Below, in pieces: positions 8,471 through 41,617 of a DNA stretch of 43,219 nucleotides (positions are counted from its first letter, which is position 1; each line of letters starts with the position of its first letter). The notes below the pieces were generated by a model. The model made no database searches, had not been told where the DNA came from, and worked only from the letters and a program-made list of their open reading frames with translations. The stretch spans positions 1 to 43,219 of the forward strand of contig JAQXZD010000056.1 of assembly GCA_029227035.1 (NCBI GenBank), given 5' to 3'. Position numbers and translations under genes: made by a program. Origin of the DNA: Lachnospiraceae bacterium. GTDB lineage: Bacteria > Bacillota > Clostridia > Lachnospirales > Lachnospiraceae.

Positions 8471-8505
8471 CACAATTGGGTGTTGAAGAACAGAAAGGAA
8501 AAGCG

Positions 8506-10722
8506 GTGGAATTACGGGATTTACTGGAATATGAAGATATTATGATACAGTGCCATGATAATCCGGATGCCGATGCGCTGGCCAGTGGGTATGCGGTATA
8601 TCTGTATTTGGTGGCAAATGGGAAGAAACCTTCCCTGATTTATGGGGGGAATAACATCATTCGTAAGGCGAATCTGCTTATGGTGATAGAGGATCTTCAG
8701 ATTCCGATTGAACATGTGGACACGGTGAACCGACCGGAACTTCTGGTGATGGTGGATTGCCAGTATAAGGGTGGTAATTCGGCTGTTTTTCCGGCAGAAA
8801 ATATCGCGGTTATCGACCACCACCGGGTCAATACAGAACTTCCGAGACTGGCAGAGGTCAGGAGCAATCTGGGCGCATGCTCGACACTGGTGTGGAAAAT
8901 GCTCAAAGATGTCGGGTATGATGTGGAACATGACAAAAAGCTTTCGACGGCACTTTATTACGGCCTGTATACGGATACAAGCGGCTTTGCGGAGATTGCG
9001 CATCCGTTGGACAGGGATTTGCGTGATGAGGCAAAGTTTGATTCCGTGCTGATACGCAAATACCGGAATGCGAATATGACTCTGGAGGATCTGGAGGTGG
9101 CGGGTGCAGCGCTTCTGCATAATGATTATATGGAGGAGTACCGGGCGGCGATTGTAAAGGTGGCACCTTGCGATTCGAATATCCTTGGCATCATCAGTGA
9201 TCTGGTGTTGGAAGTGGACGCGATAGATGTCTGCATTGTTTTCAATGAACAGCCGAACGGAGTAAAAATTTCTGTGAGAAGCTGTATCAAGGAAGTGAAG
9301 GCAAATGAGCTGGCGGCAGAGCTCTGCAAAGGAATCGGAGCCGGCGGCGGGCATGTTACAAAAGCCGGCGGCCTGATACAGATGGAGCTTTTGACAACGG
9401 AATATCTGCAGTTGTGTGAGACAAATCATTTTAAGCCGAGAATGGAGCTGGATGCCAATGGAAAAAGAGAGCAACCGGCGGCTTCCGGTATCAAGGCAGT
9501 GCTGAGTGACCGTTTCAGTGAATACATGGAGAATACGGATATCCTGTATGCAGATGAATATGAGCTGAATGAAGAGAATGCAGAGCATTATTGCAGCCGA
9601 CCGGTTCCGTGGGGGTATGTCCGGGCAACCGAATTTTATCCGGAGGGAACGGAGATTTCTGTCCGTACTCTGCAGGGAGACTTTGACAGGACACTGAGGA
9701 CGGAGGATGTGATGACAATCGGTCCGAAAGGCGAAATACACTTTGTGGACCGGGACAAATTCGAGCGTCAGTACCGTGTATATGAGGAGTGGCAGTATAC
9801 TTTGCATGATGCGGAATATGAACCTACTATCCGAAATAAGAGGACGGGGGAGATTATTTCACCTATGAGTAAGGTTCGGGTGTGCGTTCCAAACGGAATT
9901 AAGACGGTGCTTGCGCAAAAACTTTCCCGTAAAGTAAAACTGTTTCGGAAAGAAGATCCGGAGCAGCAGTATACACTGGGAAGAGTGGGAGACTATCTGC
10001 TCCAGGATCCGGATGGAAAGAGTGGAATCCGTGTGATGCGGGAAGAGAGATTTCAGAAATTGTACCGGAAAAAGGACGAGAAGGAGAAATCGGTCATCTT
10101 TGATCTGGACGGAACACTTCTGGATACCCTTGAAGATTTGAAAAATGCTGTCAATGCGGCGTTGGAGGCAACGGATATGCCGACCTGCACGCTGGAGCAG
10201 GTGCGCCAGTATGTGGGAAACGGAGTCAGGAAGCTGATGCTTCGTGCCGTTAAGGATGGGGAAAACAATCCGAGATTTGAGGAAGCGTTTGCATATTTTA
10301 AGGAATATTACAAAGAGCACTGTCTGGACAATACCAGATTGTATCCGCAGGTGGAATATCTGTTGCGGGAGTTGCAGACGCGCGGAGTTAAGATGGCGAT
10401 TGTTTCCAATAAATTTGATCCGGCGGTAAAAGAACTGAATGAGCGGTTTTTCGGGAAGTATATGGCAGCGGCAATCGGAGAGATGGAAGGGGTTGCCAGA
10501 AAGCCGGAGCCGGATATGGTATACAAGGCGCTGCGGGAGATGGGAGCAGATTCAAAGGAGGCTGTGTACGTCGGAGATTCGGAAGTGGATATTGCCACAG
10601 CACGGAATGCGGGACTGCCATGTTTCTCGGTGACCTGGGGATTTCGGGAGGTACCGTTTCTGCGGTCACATGGTGCAAAGTTCCTAATTCATACGCCGTT
10701 AGAACTATTGTATCTTATATAG
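8506..10722 (+). CDS. DHH phosphoesterase / PGDYG-like / HAD phosphatase fusion
   Basis: 738 residues with three parts. Residues 1-310 are a DHH/DHHA1 phosphoesterase of the NrnA type (HDNPDADA, VMVDCQ, DHHR at 103-106, GLYTDTSGF, GAGGGHVTKAGG), a family that degrades nanoRNA and phosphoadenosine phosphate. Residues about 365-520 hold two similar blocks, the second with VGDYLLQDPDG, resembling the PGDYG domain. Residues 528-738 are a complete HAD phosphatase like phosphoglycolate phosphatase (DLDGTLLD, IVSNK, RKPEPD, VGDSEVD). All active-site motifs look intact in both enzymes. I prefer the GTG at 8506 because AAAGGA lies 6-7 nt before it; a TTG at 8476 has no ribosome binding site. It follows the sulfatase by 35 nt. 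Confidence 0.85.
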   Translation: MELRDLLEYEDIMIQCHDNPDADALASGYAVYLYLVANGKKPSLIYGGNNIIRKANLLMVIEDLQIPIEHVDTVNRPELLVMVDCQYKGGNSAVFPAENIAVIDHHRVNTELPRLAEVRSNLGACSTLVWKMLKDVGYDVEHDKKLSTALYYGLYTDTSGFAEIAHPLDRDLRDEAKFDSVLIRKYRNANMTLEDLEVAGAALLHNDYMEEYRAAIVKVAPCDSNILGIISDLVLEVDAIDVCIVFNEQPNGVKISVRSCIKEVKANELAAELCKGIGAGGGHVTKAGGLIQMELLTTEYLQLCETNHFKPRMELDANGKREQPAASGIKAVLSDRFSEYMENTDILYADEYELNEENAEHYCSRPVPWGYVRATEFYPEGTEISVRTLQGDFDRTLRTEDVMTIGPKGEIHFVDRDKFERQYRVYEEWQYTLHDAEYEPTIRNKRTGEIISPMSKVRVCVPNGIKTVLAQKLSRKVKLFRKEDPEQQYTLGRVGDYLLQDPDGKSGIRVMREERFQKLYRKKDEKEKSVIFDLDGTLLDTLEDLKNAVNAALEATDMPTCTLEQVRQYVGNGVRKLMLRAVKDGENNPRFEEAFAYFKEYYKEHCLDNTRLYPQVEYLLRELQTRGVKMAIVSNKFDPAVKELNERFFGKYMAAAIGEMEGVARKPEPDMVYKALREMGADSKEAVYVGDSEVDIATARNAGLPCFSVTWGFREVPFLRSHGAKFLIHTPLELLYLI

Positions 10723-12825: not shown

Positions 12826-14001
12826 ATGAACGTTACAATTTCAGATGCAGTGAAGTACATAGGAGTTGATGATAAAACAATCGATTTGTTTGAGAGCCAG
12901 TATGTGGTTCCGGACGGAGTTACTTACAATTCTTATCTGATTCTGGATGAGAAGGTGGCATTGATGGATACGGTGGATGCACGCGGAATGGATGAGTGGG
13001 AGCAGAACCTGAAGGCAGCACTGGGAGACCGTAAGGTGGATTATCTGGTGATTTCCCATCTGGAGCCGGATCATGCGGGAAGTATTGCAAGATTTATGGA
13101 ACTGTATCCGGAAGCTGCACTTGTGGGAAATGCCAAGACATTTCAGATGCTGCCGCAGTTTTTTGAAGTTGATGCAGACAGAGAGCTGATCACCGTGGCA
13201 GAGGGAGAAACGCTCTCACTTGGAGCTCATACCCTGCATTTTTATATGGCACCGATGGTACATTGGCCGGAGGTAATGGTGACTTACGAAAGCAGCGAGA
13301 AGATTCTTTTCTCTGCAGACGGATTCGGAAAGTTCGGGGCAATGGATGCTGAGGACGATGAAGGCTGGGCATGTGAGGCGAGAAGATATTATTTCAATAT
13401 TGTCGGTAAGTACGGAGCTCCGGTTCAGGCACTTTTGAAAAAGGCAGCGACATTGGACATTCAGACCATCTGTCCGTTGCATGGTCCGATTTTGAAAGAG
13501 AATTTGGGATATTACATTGATTTGTACGATACATGGAGTAGCTACAAGCCGGAGAATACGGGCGTGCTGGTCGCATATGCATCCATTCACGGAAATACGG
13601 CAAAGGCAGCGGAGAAGTTTGCCGAGATGCTTCGGGAAAAAGGCGAGGAAAAAGTAGTTGTCAGCGATTTGTCGCGTGCAGATATGGCAGAGGTTGTCGA
13701 GGATGCATTCCGCTATGACCGGATGGTATTGGCTGCTGCAAGTTATGACGGTGGAGTATTCCCGTGCATGCAGGACTTTTTGCACCATCTGCAGTCAAAA
13801 GCATACCAGAATCGTAAGGTGGGAATGATTGAAAATGGTTCGTGGGGACCGACTGCAGGCAGAAGTATGAAGGCAATTCTTGAAACCATGAAAAATGTAA
13901 CCATTCTTGAGCCGATGGTAACAATTAAATCTACGATGAAGGACACTGATCTACCGGCAATGGAACAACTGGCAGAGGCAATTGTGAATGAGAGGATATA
14001 A
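12826..14001 (+). CDS. fprA: Flavodiiron protein (FprA, A-type flavoprotein)
   Basis: 391 residues. The N-terminal metallo-beta-lactamase-like domain binds a di-iron centre through HLEPDH, a later His (MVHWPE), an Asp (SADGFG) and a His (CPLHGP). The C-terminal domain (from about residue 245, starting VLVAYASIHGNTAKAAE) is a flavodoxin that binds FMN. The family reduces O2 or NO to water or N2O and protects anaerobes. No rubredoxin or reductase domain is fused, so electrons must come from a separate partner. TAGGAGG precedes the ATG. The last 14 nt overlap the start of the next gene. Confidence 0.93.
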   Translation: MNVTISDAVKYIGVDDKTIDLFESQYVVPDGVTYNSYLILDEKVALMDTVDARGMDEWEQNLKAALGDRKVDYLVISHLEPDHAGSIARFMELYPEAALVGNAKTFQMLPQFFEVDADRELITVAEGETLSLGAHTLHFYMAPMVHWPEVMVTYESSEKILFSADGFGKFGAMDAEDDEGWACEARRYYFNIVGKYGAPVQALLKKAATLDIQTICPLHGPILKENLGYYIDLYDTWSSYKPENTGVLVAYASIHGNTAKAAEKFAEMLREKGEEKVVVSDLSRADMAEVVEDAFRYDRMVLAAASYDGGVFPCMQDFLHHLQSKAYQNRKVGMIENGSWGPTAGRSMKAILETMKNVTILEPMVTIKSTMKDTDLPAMEQLAEAIVNERI

Positions 14002-16984
14002 GCGGCGGATTATTAGAAGAATACAGGCACTGATATTGGCAGTTCTGCTATGCATTCCCTGTCTGGAGGCAAAAACGGTTGATGCGGCGCCAAAAGAGAA
14101 GATTACGGTTATGTCCAATATCGGCAAGGAGACCATGGAGCCATACCTGGAGGCTTTTGAGAAGAAATATCCGGACATCTGTGTGAAATACTGCTATTAC
14201 TCGGATTATGAGACGGATATGAAAGAAAAAGCTGCAGAGGATGATTTGGGTGATGTTCTGTTTGTGCCGGGATGCATAACCACTGACGAGTATTCGCAGA
14301 GGTTTGAAAAGCTGGGAAATTATGAGGAACTGGCAGATAAGTATTATTATATGGAGGGAAGCAAGTACATTGAAGATGATGTATATGGCATTCCGTCCTC
14401 TGCTTATCTGGTAGGAATCCTGTATAACAAGGAAGTGTTTAATAAGGCAGGAATTACAGAGACACCGAAGTCCATGGATGATTTTATGCAGGATCTGTAC
14501 AGAATCAAAAATCGGACGGATGCCGTTCCTTTTTATCTCAATTATTCAGCCGGATGGCCCCTGCAGTTCTGGGAGACCTTCACGTATTTGGAGATGACAG
14601 GAGATCCGGATTATCGGAATAATGGATTTTTATATGATAAGAATCCTTTTTCGACAGGTTCTTACCACTATCAGGTGTATAAATTATTATACGATATTGT
14701 GAACCAGCATTTGAGTGAGGGAGACCTGAAGACGGATGACTGGGAAAAGTCCAAGGGGATGTTGAATGAAGGCGAAATTGGCTGTACGGCAATTGGCTCA
14801 TGGGCGATTCAGCAGTTTGAGGAAGCCGGGGACAATGGAGATAATATTGGATTCATGCCATTTCCGAATACGGTGAACGGCAAGCAGTATATGACCATAT
14901 CCACGGATTACTGCTATGCAATCAATGCAAAAAGCGAGCATAAAGAGGCGGCGAGAGCATATATTAACTTTATGCTGGATGAATCCGGTTACGCATTGGA
15001 TCAACAGAATCTGTCCATTCTTAAGACGGATCCGTATCCGGACATATATGAGGAGCTGGACAATGTTGAGCTTGCGATGAACAAGCAGGCAACGACAAAA
15101 AATGCACAACGGAAGGCAGCTTTGTCACAGAACCTGAATCTGGAGGATTATGCACAGGCGGTTCGTGTCATTGATGCCGCCGCAGGGTATTCCGATGAAA
15201 ATTTTGATGAGATTATGGAGGACTGGAATACCAGATGGGAAGCAGCACGTCCGGCGGACATGGAAGATGAACTTAAGGACAGTGCAGAGGACAATGTGAT
15301 TGGCAGCAGACTGCCGAAACAATATGAGCTGGAACTCTCACTGACGGAGAAAGAATATATAAACTCTCAGGATTTTGTGAAAGTTGGCTACTTAAAAAAC
15401 CTTGCACCTTTTCAGTATGAAAAAGATGAGGAATTTTGCGGTCTTTCCAGAGAATTGCTGGATCAGATGAGTGCGATGGTTGATATCAAATTCGAGTATG
15501 TTGGATTTGACAGTCAGACAAAACTCATGGAAGCACTGGAAAACGGGGATATTCAGATGGCGGCGGGTGTGGATCCGGACAGTTATGGTAACGGTGGAGT
15601 TTATTTTTCCAAAAGCTACATGGATTACATGAAGGTCATTGTTAAGAATGATACCGTCGAAGTGGAGGATCTCAGCGGGAAAAAACCGGCGTATGTGGAA
15701 GGAGATCTGGAGAAACCGGAAGGAAAAGCGGTTCGAAGAAAAACTTTTCCGTCTGCGATAAAAGCAGTGGATGCGGGAGAGGCAGATTATGTTTTGGGGA
15801 ATTTTTACAGTGCGGATTACTATCTGAAAGCGCTGGAGTGTGAACATGCAACCATAATTCCGATGTCGGATCAGGGAAGCATGGCATTTGGTTTTTACGG
15901 TGGAACGGATACAAGAATGCTGTCCATCAGTAATAAGTGTCTGTATGGAATCGGACAAAGTCAGATACAGGTGATGCTGATGGACAATCTGGATCCTCCG
16001 CCGAAAGAGATTACGGTAACGCAGTTTATCCGAGCGCGGCCTATGCTGGTGGTAGGCGTAATCCTGTTTATTATTGCTCTTATTGTCCTGACATGGTTTA
16101 TTGTGCTGCGTCAGAAGTGGCTCAGTGCCAGAACACATGCCGTGGATGTTAAGCGGTATGAAATATTGGCGACGTTGACGGACGAATATATTTTTGAGTA
16201 TGATGATAACAGTAGGATTTTGCGCCTGGACGGAAAGGCGGCAGAGCGGTTTCATGTTGCCCGCCAGATAGATATGGCATTGTACAGGAAAGAGTATCCG
16301 TGGCTGAATGAGTTGATTGAGCGATTCAAGGAGATGATGGAAAATCAGGAAAACGAGTCGAAGCCATTTCAGATGGAGCAGGAGGATGGCGTTTCGGAAT
16401 GGTATCGGCTGGTTGTGCACTCATTGGAGAATGAGGGAGAGAAAAAGCCACATGTGATTGGAAAACTTGTCAACATTCAAAAAGAGATAGAAGATCAGCA
16501 GCGGATGCTGGATCGTGCGCAGAAAGATCCATTGACGGGGTTGTATAACAGAAAGCGGTTTTCAAAAGAATTCGAAAAAATTGAGCCGAAAGAATCGATT
16601 GCATATGCAGTGCTTGATATAGATAATTTTAAGCAGGTAAACGATACCCTTGGACATGCGGGAGGAGATGAAGCCCTGAAATGTCTGGCGGGTAAAATTC
16701 GTAATATATTTAAAGGGAAGGTGATATATGGACGATTCGGCGGCGATGAATTTGTGATTTGTACTTATGATATGTCAAGGGAAAAGGTGGAAAGTCTTTT
16801 CGAGAAACTGGTACAGGAGATGAAGTGTAAATTGGAGTACCAGGGGAAGGAGAAAGACCTGTCTATCAGCCTTGGTGCGGTGTACCGACAGAGAAAACTG
16901 CCATTGGAGACTCTGTTAAAGGACGCAGATGCCGTCCTGTACGATGTGAAGGAAAATGGTAAGAATAGTTGGAAAATGGATTAG
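13988..16984 (+). CDS. Membrane diguanylate cyclase with two solute-binding domains
   Basis: 998 residues. A basic N-terminus and hydrophobic stretch (residues 12-28) look like a signal peptide or anchor. Residues about 35-430 resemble a type 1 (sugar-type) ABC solute-binding protein. Residues about 455-670 resemble a type 3 (polar amino acid-type) solute-binding domain beginning VKVGYLKNLAPFQY. One membrane helix lies at about 684-707. A PAS-like linker (about 725-835) leads to a GGDEF domain with DPLTGLYNR and intact GGDEF at 918-922. The RxxD inhibitory site is absent (K and V at the expected positions), so product inhibition by that site is unlikely. The likely role is making c-di-GMP in response to extracellular ligands. 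The gene starts inside fprA (14-nt overlap), with GAGG 9 nt upstream. Confidence 0.87.
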   Translation: MRGYKRRIIRRIQALILAVLLCIPCLEAKTVDAAPKEKITVMSNIGKETMEPYLEAFEKKYPDICVKYCYYSDYETDMKEKAAEDDLGDVLFVPGCITTDEYSQRFEKLGNYEELADKYYYMEGSKYIEDDVYGIPSSAYLVGILYNKEVFNKAGITETPKSMDDFMQDLYRIKNRTDAVPFYLNYSAGWPLQFWETFTYLEMTGDPDYRNNGFLYDKNPFSTGSYHYQVYKLLYDIVNQHLSEGDLKTDDWEKSKGMLNEGEIGCTAIGSWAIQQFEEAGDNGDNIGFMPFPNTVNGKQYMTISTDYCYAINAKSEHKEAARAYINFMLDESGYALDQQNLSILKTDPYPDIYEELDNVELAMNKQATTKNAQRKAALSQNLNLEDYAQAVRVIDAAAGYSDENFDEIMEDWNTRWEAARPADMEDELKDSAEDNVIGSRLPKQYELELSLTEKEYINSQDFVKVGYLKNLAPFQYEKDEEFCGLSRELLDQMSAMVDIKFEYVGFDSQTKLMEALENGDIQMAAGVDPDSYGNGGVYFSKSYMDYMKVIVKNDTVEVEDLSGKKPAYVEGDLEKPEGKAVRRKTFPSAIKAVDAGEADYVLGNFYSADYYLKALECEHATIIPMSDQGSMAFGFYGGTDTRMLSISNKCLYGIGQSQIQVMLMDNLDPPPKEITVTQFIRARPMLVVGVILFIIALIVLTWFIVLRQKWLSARTHAVDVKRYEILATLTDEYIFEYDDNSRILRLDGKAAERFHVARQIDMALYRKEYPWLNELIERFKEMMENQENESKPFQMEQEDGVSEWYRLVVHSLENEGEKKPHVIGKLVNIQKEIEDQQRMLDRAQKDPLTGLYNRKRFSKEFEKIEPKESIAYAVLDIDNFKQVNDTLGHAGGDEALKCLAGKIRNIFKGKVIYGRFGGDEFVICTYDMSREKVESLFEKLVQEMKCKLEYQGKEKDLSISLGAVYRQRKLPLETLLKDADAVLYDVKENGKNSWKMD

Positions 16985-39244: not shown

Positions 39245-39318
39245 CAGGGCATAATTTCCGTTCTTTCTTTTTTTGCCGCAAATTTACGAAAATTGCATGA
39301 TTGCTTTACGAGGAACTC

Positions 39319-39347
39319 TTGTCAAAAAGTTTGCAACATGCTATTCT
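39319..39347 (+). promoter_or_regulatory. Likely promoter of the broken GGDEF-EAL gene
   Basis: TTGTCA (39319-39324), a 17-nt spacer and TATTCT (39342-39347), about 50 nt before the ATG at 39399. GGGGGAGG serves as ribosome binding site. Confidence 0.5.
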
Positions 39348-39398
39348 CTAATCAAGGCATATCGGTTGGATAAGGGATATGGGGGAGGCGGTATACAT

Positions 39399-41617
39399 AT
39401 GAGAAAAGAGATCGGAAAGAAAGCAAAGTTTCTGATTGTTATATCGGCTGCAGTTCTGGTTCTGATTACGATTCTTTTTTTCACGAATAAGGTAGAAGAA
39501 AATGTACGGGCGCAGTTGGAACAGAATTTGGAGGATGTGGCAAATCAGAATGCGATGGCATTACGAAATCAGATTCACAGCAATGAGCTTTTGCTTAACG
39601 GACTTGCTGCGGAGCTGATGGAAAGTGAAGATCAGACAGAGGCGGTCACGAAGTACTGCAATTTTGTGGAGAGTTACGGTTTAAAGAGGCTGGGATACTG
39701 TCAGCCGGATGGAATAACGACCTCCACGGACGGAGTAAAAGTGGATCTCTCTCACAGAAACTTTTTTCAGAGAGGAATGCAGGGGAAAGCTACGATTACC
39801 GGGGTTCTGACAGATGCGATGAGCGAGGAACACGGTCAGGTTACCGTTATGAGCATACCGATGAAGGATAATGCGGGACAGGTGCAGGGAGTTGCCTGTA
39901 TGACCTACGACTCGGATGCTTTTAATGATACGTTACAGATGCGGAGCTTCGAAGGAAAAGGCTACAGTTTCGCGGTTAATGAGAACGGTGAGGTTATGGT
40001 CAGTATGGGCAATGATGGTTTGCGACTGACAGCGAATCTCTTTGATATATTGGAACAGAACCCGGAAAATGACAAGTTTTAGAGAATATAGAAAAAGAAA
40101 GAAAAACGGGAGGAAAGTTATATCTTTCGCAGGAAGAGTATTTTTACGCAACGCCGGTAAAACTGATGGGAGGCGAAGTCACCTGGTATATGTTTACCGT
40201 GGTACCGAGTGATTATTTTGAGGAGCGGTTTGGCGAAACCCGTCGGAATCTTTATCGGATGGACCTGTTGGTAATACTGCTTATAGTGGTCAGTGTATGG
40301 GTGTTTATGTGGATTTCCAGAGAACAGCGTCTGGAAACCATACGGCTTGCCTATACGGATCCGCTTACGGGAGACGCAAATTATGCCAAATTCTGTCAGG
40401 TTGTGAATTCCCAGCATGGCAGACAGGGATATCTGATATCGATGAATGTTCAGAATTTCAGTAATGTCAATATAGCTGCTGGGCGGGCAGTCGGAGACAG
40501 CATGCTTATGAACATATGGCAGGTTTTGAAGAATGCGGTTGGAACGAATGAGATGGCGGCAAGGGTAAGGGAAGATTACTTTGCCGTATTTATGGAAGCT
40601 TCAACGGAGGAGAGACTGATTCAACGGACGGAAGCGATCTCTGCAAAAGTTCATGGGCTTGCGAAAAAGATACAGGTGCCGGGCGTCTATCTGCAGTATT
40701 GAATCTGTGAGTTGAAAGAAGACGAACTGGTGGAAGACGGATACGCGAAAGCACGGCTGGCCTGTGATTTTGCAGGAGGTGATCACACAAAGCGTTATGT
40801 ATTTTACCGGGATATCAATCAGGCAGCACTGTACGAAGACCAAGAGCTTGAGGAGCGGTTTGATGAAGCTTTGGAAACGCATGAATTTGAGGTATGGTAT
40901 CAGCCAAAATACAGTGTAAGCGGAGCGGAAATGGTTGGAAGTGAAGCGCTTGTACGTTGGAGAAACAAAGACGGCAGCCTGATTTCGCCGGGACGTTTTA
41001 TTCCGCTGTTTGAGAAGAACGGAATGATTGCAAGGCTGGATGAGTATATGTTTCGGAGTGTCTGCTGTCAGCAGGCAAAGTGGAAGGAAGAGGGCTATCC
41101 GATACTTCCGGTTTCCGTGAATCTGAGCAGAGCGTCTCTTTATTATTCGGATCTGGTGGAAAAATATGAAAATATTATCAAGGAATATCAACTGGATGCC
41201 AGATATGTTCAGATTGAAGTGACAGAGAGCGCTATGGAGGGAAAAACAGATATCCTGAAAGTGCTGGGACAATTTAGGAAGATCGGCGTGCAGATTCTGA
41301 TGGATGATTTTGGAACCGGGTATTCTTCTCTGGCGGTTTTGAATACGAGATGCTTTGACACGCTGAAGCTGGATAAGAGCCTGATTGATCATATCGGGGA
41401 AGAAAAAGGAGAGACTCTTCTGTACCATGTGATCAGTATGGGAAAGCAGCTTGGTCTGAATATTACCGCGGAAGGTGTGGAGAATACGATGCAGTTGGAA
41501 TATCTGCAAAAATTGCATTGTGATGATATACAGGGATTCCTGTTTGCACGGCCGATGCCAAAGGCAGATTTTGAGAAAGAGATGAAGAAAAAGTGTGAGG
41601 AACAAATTCGTGAGTAA
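39399..41617 (+). pseudogene. Disrupted membrane GGDEF-EAL protein (frameshift and nonsense)
   Basis: Three open pieces make one gene. Piece 1 (39399-40082) has a membrane helix and an extracytoplasmic Cache-like sensor domain. It stops at a TAG in GTTTTAG at 40077-40082; one extra T there would restore DKFLENIEKERK and join piece 2, which carries the second membrane helix and a degenerate GGDEF domain (REDYF in place of GGDEF). Piece 2 ends at TGA 40700-40702 and piece 3 continues in the same frame; a Gly (GGA) would fit the usual GI-E pattern there. Piece 3 is an EAL phosphodiesterase with EAL (40943-40951), DDFGTGYSSL, the KLDKS Lys and AEGVE intact. Two independent lesions make a sequencing error less likely. 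The EAL part might still be made. Confidence 0.82.

Follow-up and report, generated by a model that had tools for sequence, protein, structure and literature searches.

The window analysed here is a stretch of 43,219 nucleotides that makes up an entire contig (C56, JAQXZD010000056.1) of a Lachnospiraceae bacterium genome (GCA_029227035.1) of 2.4 Mb, divided into 121 contigs and with an estimated completeness of 85.6%. Its open reading frame (ORF) 13988..16984, on the + strand, starts with ATG, has no internal stop and encodes a 998-residue receptor cyclase. The protein carries, in order, a type 1 solute-binding domain (SBP_bac_1, here SBP1), a type 3 solute-binding domain or Venus flytrap (SBP_bac_3, here SBP3), one transmembrane helix, a PAS-like region and a GGDEF domain. 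Pfam and hydropathy agree with a first-pass annotation, read from the DNA letters, that one chain joins the two binding domains to a single membrane helix. Judging from its sequence, this membrane protein probably signals the presence of an external sugar straight to the cell's cyclic di-GMP (c-di-GMP) network.

Pfam places SBP_bac_1 at residues 48-334 (E 6e-28), SBP_bac_3 from residue 464 (E 9e-9; 35.6 bits for a cut-off of 26.4) and GGDEF at residues 845-993 (E 8e-32). The best 60 of 101 matches of the full protein to solved structures extend these assignments: residues 49-420 match the manno-oligosaccharide binding protein BlMnBP1 (E 2e-68), residues 451-661 the flytraps of BvgS (E 2e-15), and residues 839-994 and similar stretches many cyclases. 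Two structure predictions, with mean predicted local distance difference test (pLDDT) values of 38.8 and 39.5, were set aside. The chain begins with a hydrophobic helix, signal peptide or anchor, at 14006..14089 (about residues 7-34 from hydropathy), in which no lipobox was found on inspection by eye. SBP1 covers 14102..15283 (residues 39-432), as defined from Pfam, PDB matches, tree and conservation, and SBP3 covers 15332..16057 (residues 449-690), as defined from Pfam, PDB matches and alignment. Hydropathy gives one helix within residues 677-713, and the transmembrane segment is assigned to about residues 691-714 (16058..16129). All these features, and those that follow in the chain, are on the + strand.

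The GGDEF domain (16520..16966, residues 845-993; Pfam and alignment) is above the Pfam cut-off, with an intact signature, in the window protein and in the seven fused relatives described below. The Asp, Lys and Asn residues that are usual around the motif, and that have functional roles in such domains, are present in the alignment of all eight. The inhibitory site (I-site) RxxD is missing, as first annotated: residues -9 to -6 before GGDEF read KGKV in the window protein, and none of the eight fused proteins has the motif, which is present in two of five tandem SBP_bac_3-GGDEF relatives. The evidence for the PAS-like linker of the first-pass annotation is weak. Pfam gives no PAS profile match in the window protein itself and the region is missing from the G305 relative. 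An alignment of eight members, searched at E <= 0.1, yields PAS_3 in three proteins and PAS_9 in two, and a profile comparison with PDB returns a sensory-box protein at the top (E 0.011), followed by further PAS proteins, but also by ribosomal protein L23. We assign a weakly indicated PAS-like region to 16145..16510 (about residues 720-841). In G305, the fused cyclase gene overlaps a second GGDEF gene, encoding 374 amino acids (L068:5117-8909).

A rare family of fused cyclases

Seven relatives share SBP_bac_1, SBP_bac_3 and GGDEF in the same order, all above Pfam cut-offs. Four are from the same genus (G343, which is 54% identical to the window protein, G305, G334 and G299; 5 of 62 genomes with the window's own), two from other genera of the family (G054, and G122, whose protein is cut N-terminally by a contig end; 3 of 299 genomes with the window's own) and one from another family of the order (G532; 2 of 392 genomes with the window's own). 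Among the 391 genomes of the class sample and the 398 of the phylum sample, a full-length match at E <= 1e-80 was found in the window's own genome alone. The family, order, class and phylum counts are rough lower bounds, the samples overlapping and at most two candidates being scored per genome. The fused SBP1-SBP3-GGDEF architecture is thus that of a real but rare family.

A tree of SBP1 places the eight fused proteins on one side of a branch and 47 stand-alone relatives on the other (support 100/99). A tree of the SBP3-to-GGDEF part separates them equally from the five tandem SBP3-GGDEF proteins (support 100/99). Both trees pair the window protein with G343, and G334 with G299. The fused clade fits a single fusion event, in trees that are unrooted and in which a clade inside the transport proteins and a clade beside them look the same.

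The window protein is a variant of a tandem-flytrap cyclase. Tandem SBP_bac_3-GGDEF proteins occur in the same bacterial family (G046, G015, G149 and two in G162); alignment with the fused proteins covers their second SBP3, transmembrane helix, PAS-like region and GGDEF. Pfam detects two SBP_bac_3 stretches in all five, their outer domain being SBP3 and not SBP1. BvgS of Bordetella (4q0c, 3mpl, 3mpk), the best solved match of the window SBP3, differs in that it ends in a histidine kinase and has another flytrap of matching type as its outer domain. Its tandem flytraps, followed by PAS and an output domain, resemble the arrangement found here (PMC5431781). CdgH of Vibrio cholerae likewise has tandem periplasmic-binding domains, a membrane part and GGDEF in one chain (PMC5431781). 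Both CdgH domains are of the amino-acid type, whereas the window protein has as its outer domain a complete SBP_bac_1 from the manno-oligosaccharide family and not one of a pair of type 3 flytraps.

Binding proteins that drive membrane sensors are described for CuaD-CuaSR (PMC10384115) and NspS-MbaA (PMC9993111), the latter acting on c-di-GMP. These are separate proteins, CuaSR being a two-component system and NspS sensing polyamines, whereas the window protein is one chain; only one locus of our collection, L045, looks like a two-gene arrangement. SBP_bac_1 is listed among the sensing domains of Azospirillum two-component systems (PMC4618731), so that its presence on sensors is not new as such. 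A 2022 review names SBP_bac_3 as the only one of 27 periplasmic-binding clan families for which work on c-di-GMP networks exists (PMC8846402). We found no description of an SBP_bac_1-GGDEF fusion in the part of the literature searched; one may be held in the supplementary tables of this review. A defined SBP_bac_1 cyclase with a named candidate ligand offers a testable case made of known parts, in a domain class that is unstudied in this setting according to that one review.

The two binding domains

The first domain was initially annotated as sugar-type, a label that SBP_bac_1 supports and that the structural matches sharpen. Four PDB entries of BlMnBP1 and BlMnBP2 match SBP1 with E values of 9e-67 to 3e-69, the lowest for BlMnBP1, and the next entry follows at E 4e-16. 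On these matches SBP1 belongs to the beta-manno-oligosaccharide binding-protein family and is not a generic sugar binder, a kinship checked against BlMnBP1 and BlMnBP2 alone and drawn from these matches, not from the SBP1 tree, which is made of near relatives. BlMnBP1, RiMnBP and FpMOBP (PMC8106489, PMC6385246, PMC8262883) are binding proteins of mannan ATP-binding cassette (ABC) systems. These members of the same sequence family are separate transport proteins, whereas the window domain forms part of a cyclase encoded away from permease genes. RiMnBP of Roseburia binds M3-M5 at 2.55-3.89 uM (PMC6385246). In G082, a stand-alone relative with 44% identity to the window protein has a match to BlMnBP1 at E 1.5e-91; its gene sits among those for glycoside hydrolase family 130 (GH130), an epimerase, permeases and LacI.

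Conservation is marked in this domain. The window protein keeps 70 of the 79 positions that are conserved in at least 90% of the 47 stand-alone proteins, W190, W195, W252 and W272 among them. Mean identity within the fused family is 47% for SBP1, 42% for GGDEF, 32% for SBP3 and 31% for the PAS-like region; conservation is higher in SBP1 than in SBP3 for 28/28 pairs of proteins, and higher than in GGDEF for 21/28. Invariant columns number 68/395 in SBP1 and 13/257 in SBP3. These sequence comparisons are evidence of selection on SBP1 and do not point to one particular ligand.

SBP3 is above the Pfam cut-off in all eight fused proteins. Its matches to solved structures are led by the BvgS flytraps (E 6e-17); CdgH (5GZS) follows weakly (E 0.0012), with amino-acid transport proteins at 0.003 and 0.008. 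The residues that usually hold an amino acid are missing. At the position of the carboxylate-binding Arg, a short gap is seen in all eight proteins and none has an Arg; at that of the amino-group Asp all have Asn, within an invariant N-[FY]-Y motif. These positions were mapped by our own alignment, with residue roles after the CdgH paper (PMC5431781), and the structure alignment with BvgS puts an Arg of the latter opposite a Gly. Just one of the five tandem relatives has Arg at this position, by eye, so that its loss is not peculiar to the fused clade. Since Arg and Asp are missing in 8/8 and the domain is poorly conserved relative to SBP1, SBP3 fits better as a relay than as a second nutrient receptor, with room left for a ligand of another kind.

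Candidate ligand and proposed signalling route

The stand-alone relatives of SBP1 are encoded in surroundings of the mannan type. A permease of this type is found near 43 of the 47 genes in the flanking DNA examined, which was mostly 1.5 kb on each side (exceptions L033, L035, L039 and L045). Among twelve loci with wider DNA (L045, L046, L047, L049 and L074-L081), eleven have permeases and nine have GH130 and/or the epimerase, names given at family level because the NCBIfam matches are below the curated equivalog cut-offs; L046 and L047, both in the nine, are near-copies. L076 has permeases with neither GH130 nor epimerase. The same is true of L049, where a LacI regulator is also present along with two esterases (one is of CE2 type), and L045 has none of the three. 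The window's own genome holds a mannan-type ABC locus on contig C89, with two GH130 genes, an epimerase, permeases, LacI, a GH36 alpha-galactosidase and a binding protein 39% identical to the window SBP1. The beta-mannan gene set of Roseburia intestinalis resembles this locus (PMC6385246). The first-pass annotation had suggested that the fused receptor might replace a transporter's own binding protein; the C89 locus, together with a separate stand-alone relative in five of the seven fused genomes searched (E <= 1e-40 or 1e-50), leads us to reject this for the window's genome. CuaD is distinct from a coexisting transport binding protein (PMC10384115).

We favour, with moderate confidence, a one-piece extracellular glycan receptor whose outer SBP1 senses a beta-manno-oligosaccharide and changes c-di-GMP synthesis. 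The ligand would close SBP1, and this closure would move the membrane-proximal SBP3, whose main role would be that of a relay that forms dimers, in line with proposals for BvgS and CdgH. The movement would then pass through the membrane helix and the PAS-like linker to alter the pairing of two GGDEF domains, and with it c-di-GMP synthesis, by either activation or inhibition. A dimer signalling route for tandem flytraps is hypothesised by the authors of the CdgH study (PMC5431781). The signal could be read and erased in the same genome, which has 22 GGDEF, 9 EAL and 4 PilZ matches. If true, fragments of plant fibre would be linked directly to c-di-GMP-controlled behaviour, such as attachment or motility, in gut Clostridia. 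We hold more tentatively the wider view of a clade of mannan-fragment receptors writing into c-di-GMP, made once by SBP1 replacing the outer flytrap of a CdgH/BvgS-like cyclase, with sensing and transport copies coexisting.

Several observations weigh against a beta-manno-oligosaccharide as the ligand. None of the eight fused contexts, including one that can be read from a single side (G122) and one on a 12-kb contig (G532), has a permease, GH130 or epimerase of the mannan families. Stand-alone relatives are not clearly enriched in genomes with a fused gene: at E <= 1e-50, 3/5 of these within the genus have one, as do 22/57 of the others. All eight fused proteins keep only 38 of the 79 conserved positions, a count lowered by a few because one protein is cut at its N-terminus. 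In the G334/G299 pair SBP1 is much diverged, no stand-alone relative is found at E <= 1e-50, and its ligand may be different from that of the rest. The alignments gave no position for Asn63 of BlMnBP1, a residue with a tested role, nor for the ligand contacts of that protein.

A shift of SBP1 to another glycan, for instance gluco-oligosaccharides or a glycan of the host or self cell wall, seems rather unlikely. In its favour, mannan genes are absent from the varied surroundings of the fused genes, the fused clade is set apart from every stand-alone protein, and some conserved positions have changed. The window protein, for example, has Leu in place of Thr at 184, and several members have Asn or Ser in place of Asp at 246 and 251. 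Retention of most conserved positions by the window protein, and the strong constraint on SBP1, argue against such a shift. We give still less credit to a dual-input receptor, in which SBP1 senses a sugar and SBP3 a small molecule, both setting c-di-GMP output. Amino acids are ligands of both flytraps in CdgH, where the second has a preference for Gln and His (PMC5431781); SBP3 passes the Pfam cut-off throughout the fused family, and its N-[FY]-Y motif could be a pocket of another kind. The absence of the usual Arg and Asp and the scarcity of invariant columns, relative to SBP1, speak against this proposal and do not uphold the two nutrient signals first suggested. That assembly has joined two genes, or that the gene has decayed, is conceivable in so fragmented a genome and is rejected with near certainty, given the seven relatives of the same domain order, one of them (G343) with the same upstream neighbours, the uninterrupted ORF and a single clade on both halves.

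Gene surroundings and other features of the window

Directly upstream of the cyclase gene, at 12826..14001 (+), lies a gene coding for an ODP-type beta-lactamase plus flavodoxin, which overlaps the cyclase gene start by 14 bases. A pyruvate kinase gene follows the cyclase gene. The DUF624 gene is two genes upstream, as first annotated; its proposed value as a clue to sugar transport is a faint hint at most, with DUF624 near two of the eight fused genes and near one stand-alone mannan-type locus (L081). The ODP/flavodoxin and DUF624 genes recur beside G343 alone among the other fused contexts. G334 and G299 have other neighbours in common, including, next to the fused gene, a long gene for a coiled-coil protein that carries a ZapA domain at its N-terminus (L069:9914-12589 and L070:3827-6595, respectively). 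The surroundings of the fused genes give no clue to the ligand.

At L045:5785-8575, a dCache-GGDEF gene starts 22 bases downstream of an orphan SBP1 gene that belongs to the mannan family, and no permease of the types sought lies within 14.5 kb. This may be a two-gene SBP-cyclase pair, and a second association of SBP1 with a cyclase. We reject the reading that it is the fused chain split over two genes, since the second one encodes dCache-GGDEF and not SBP3, and count it as a separate association.

A distant blastn comparison with a plasmid collection gave no matches. The c-di-GMP riboswitch RF01051 had no match in the genome, and neither had the control, so that this absence carries no weight. 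Promoter and terminator scans gave results not above chance. The Rfam scan of the window found only tRNAs above Rfam thresholds, and six tRNA genes are clustered at the contig end (88-760, +). A single ORF at 8476-10722 (+) encodes both a DHH/DHHA1 phosphoesterase and a HAD hydrolase. Pieces of dCache, GGDEF and EAL domains are spread across three consecutive ORFs at 39273-41617 (+), as if a frame change and a stop had split a single dCache-GGDEF-EAL gene.

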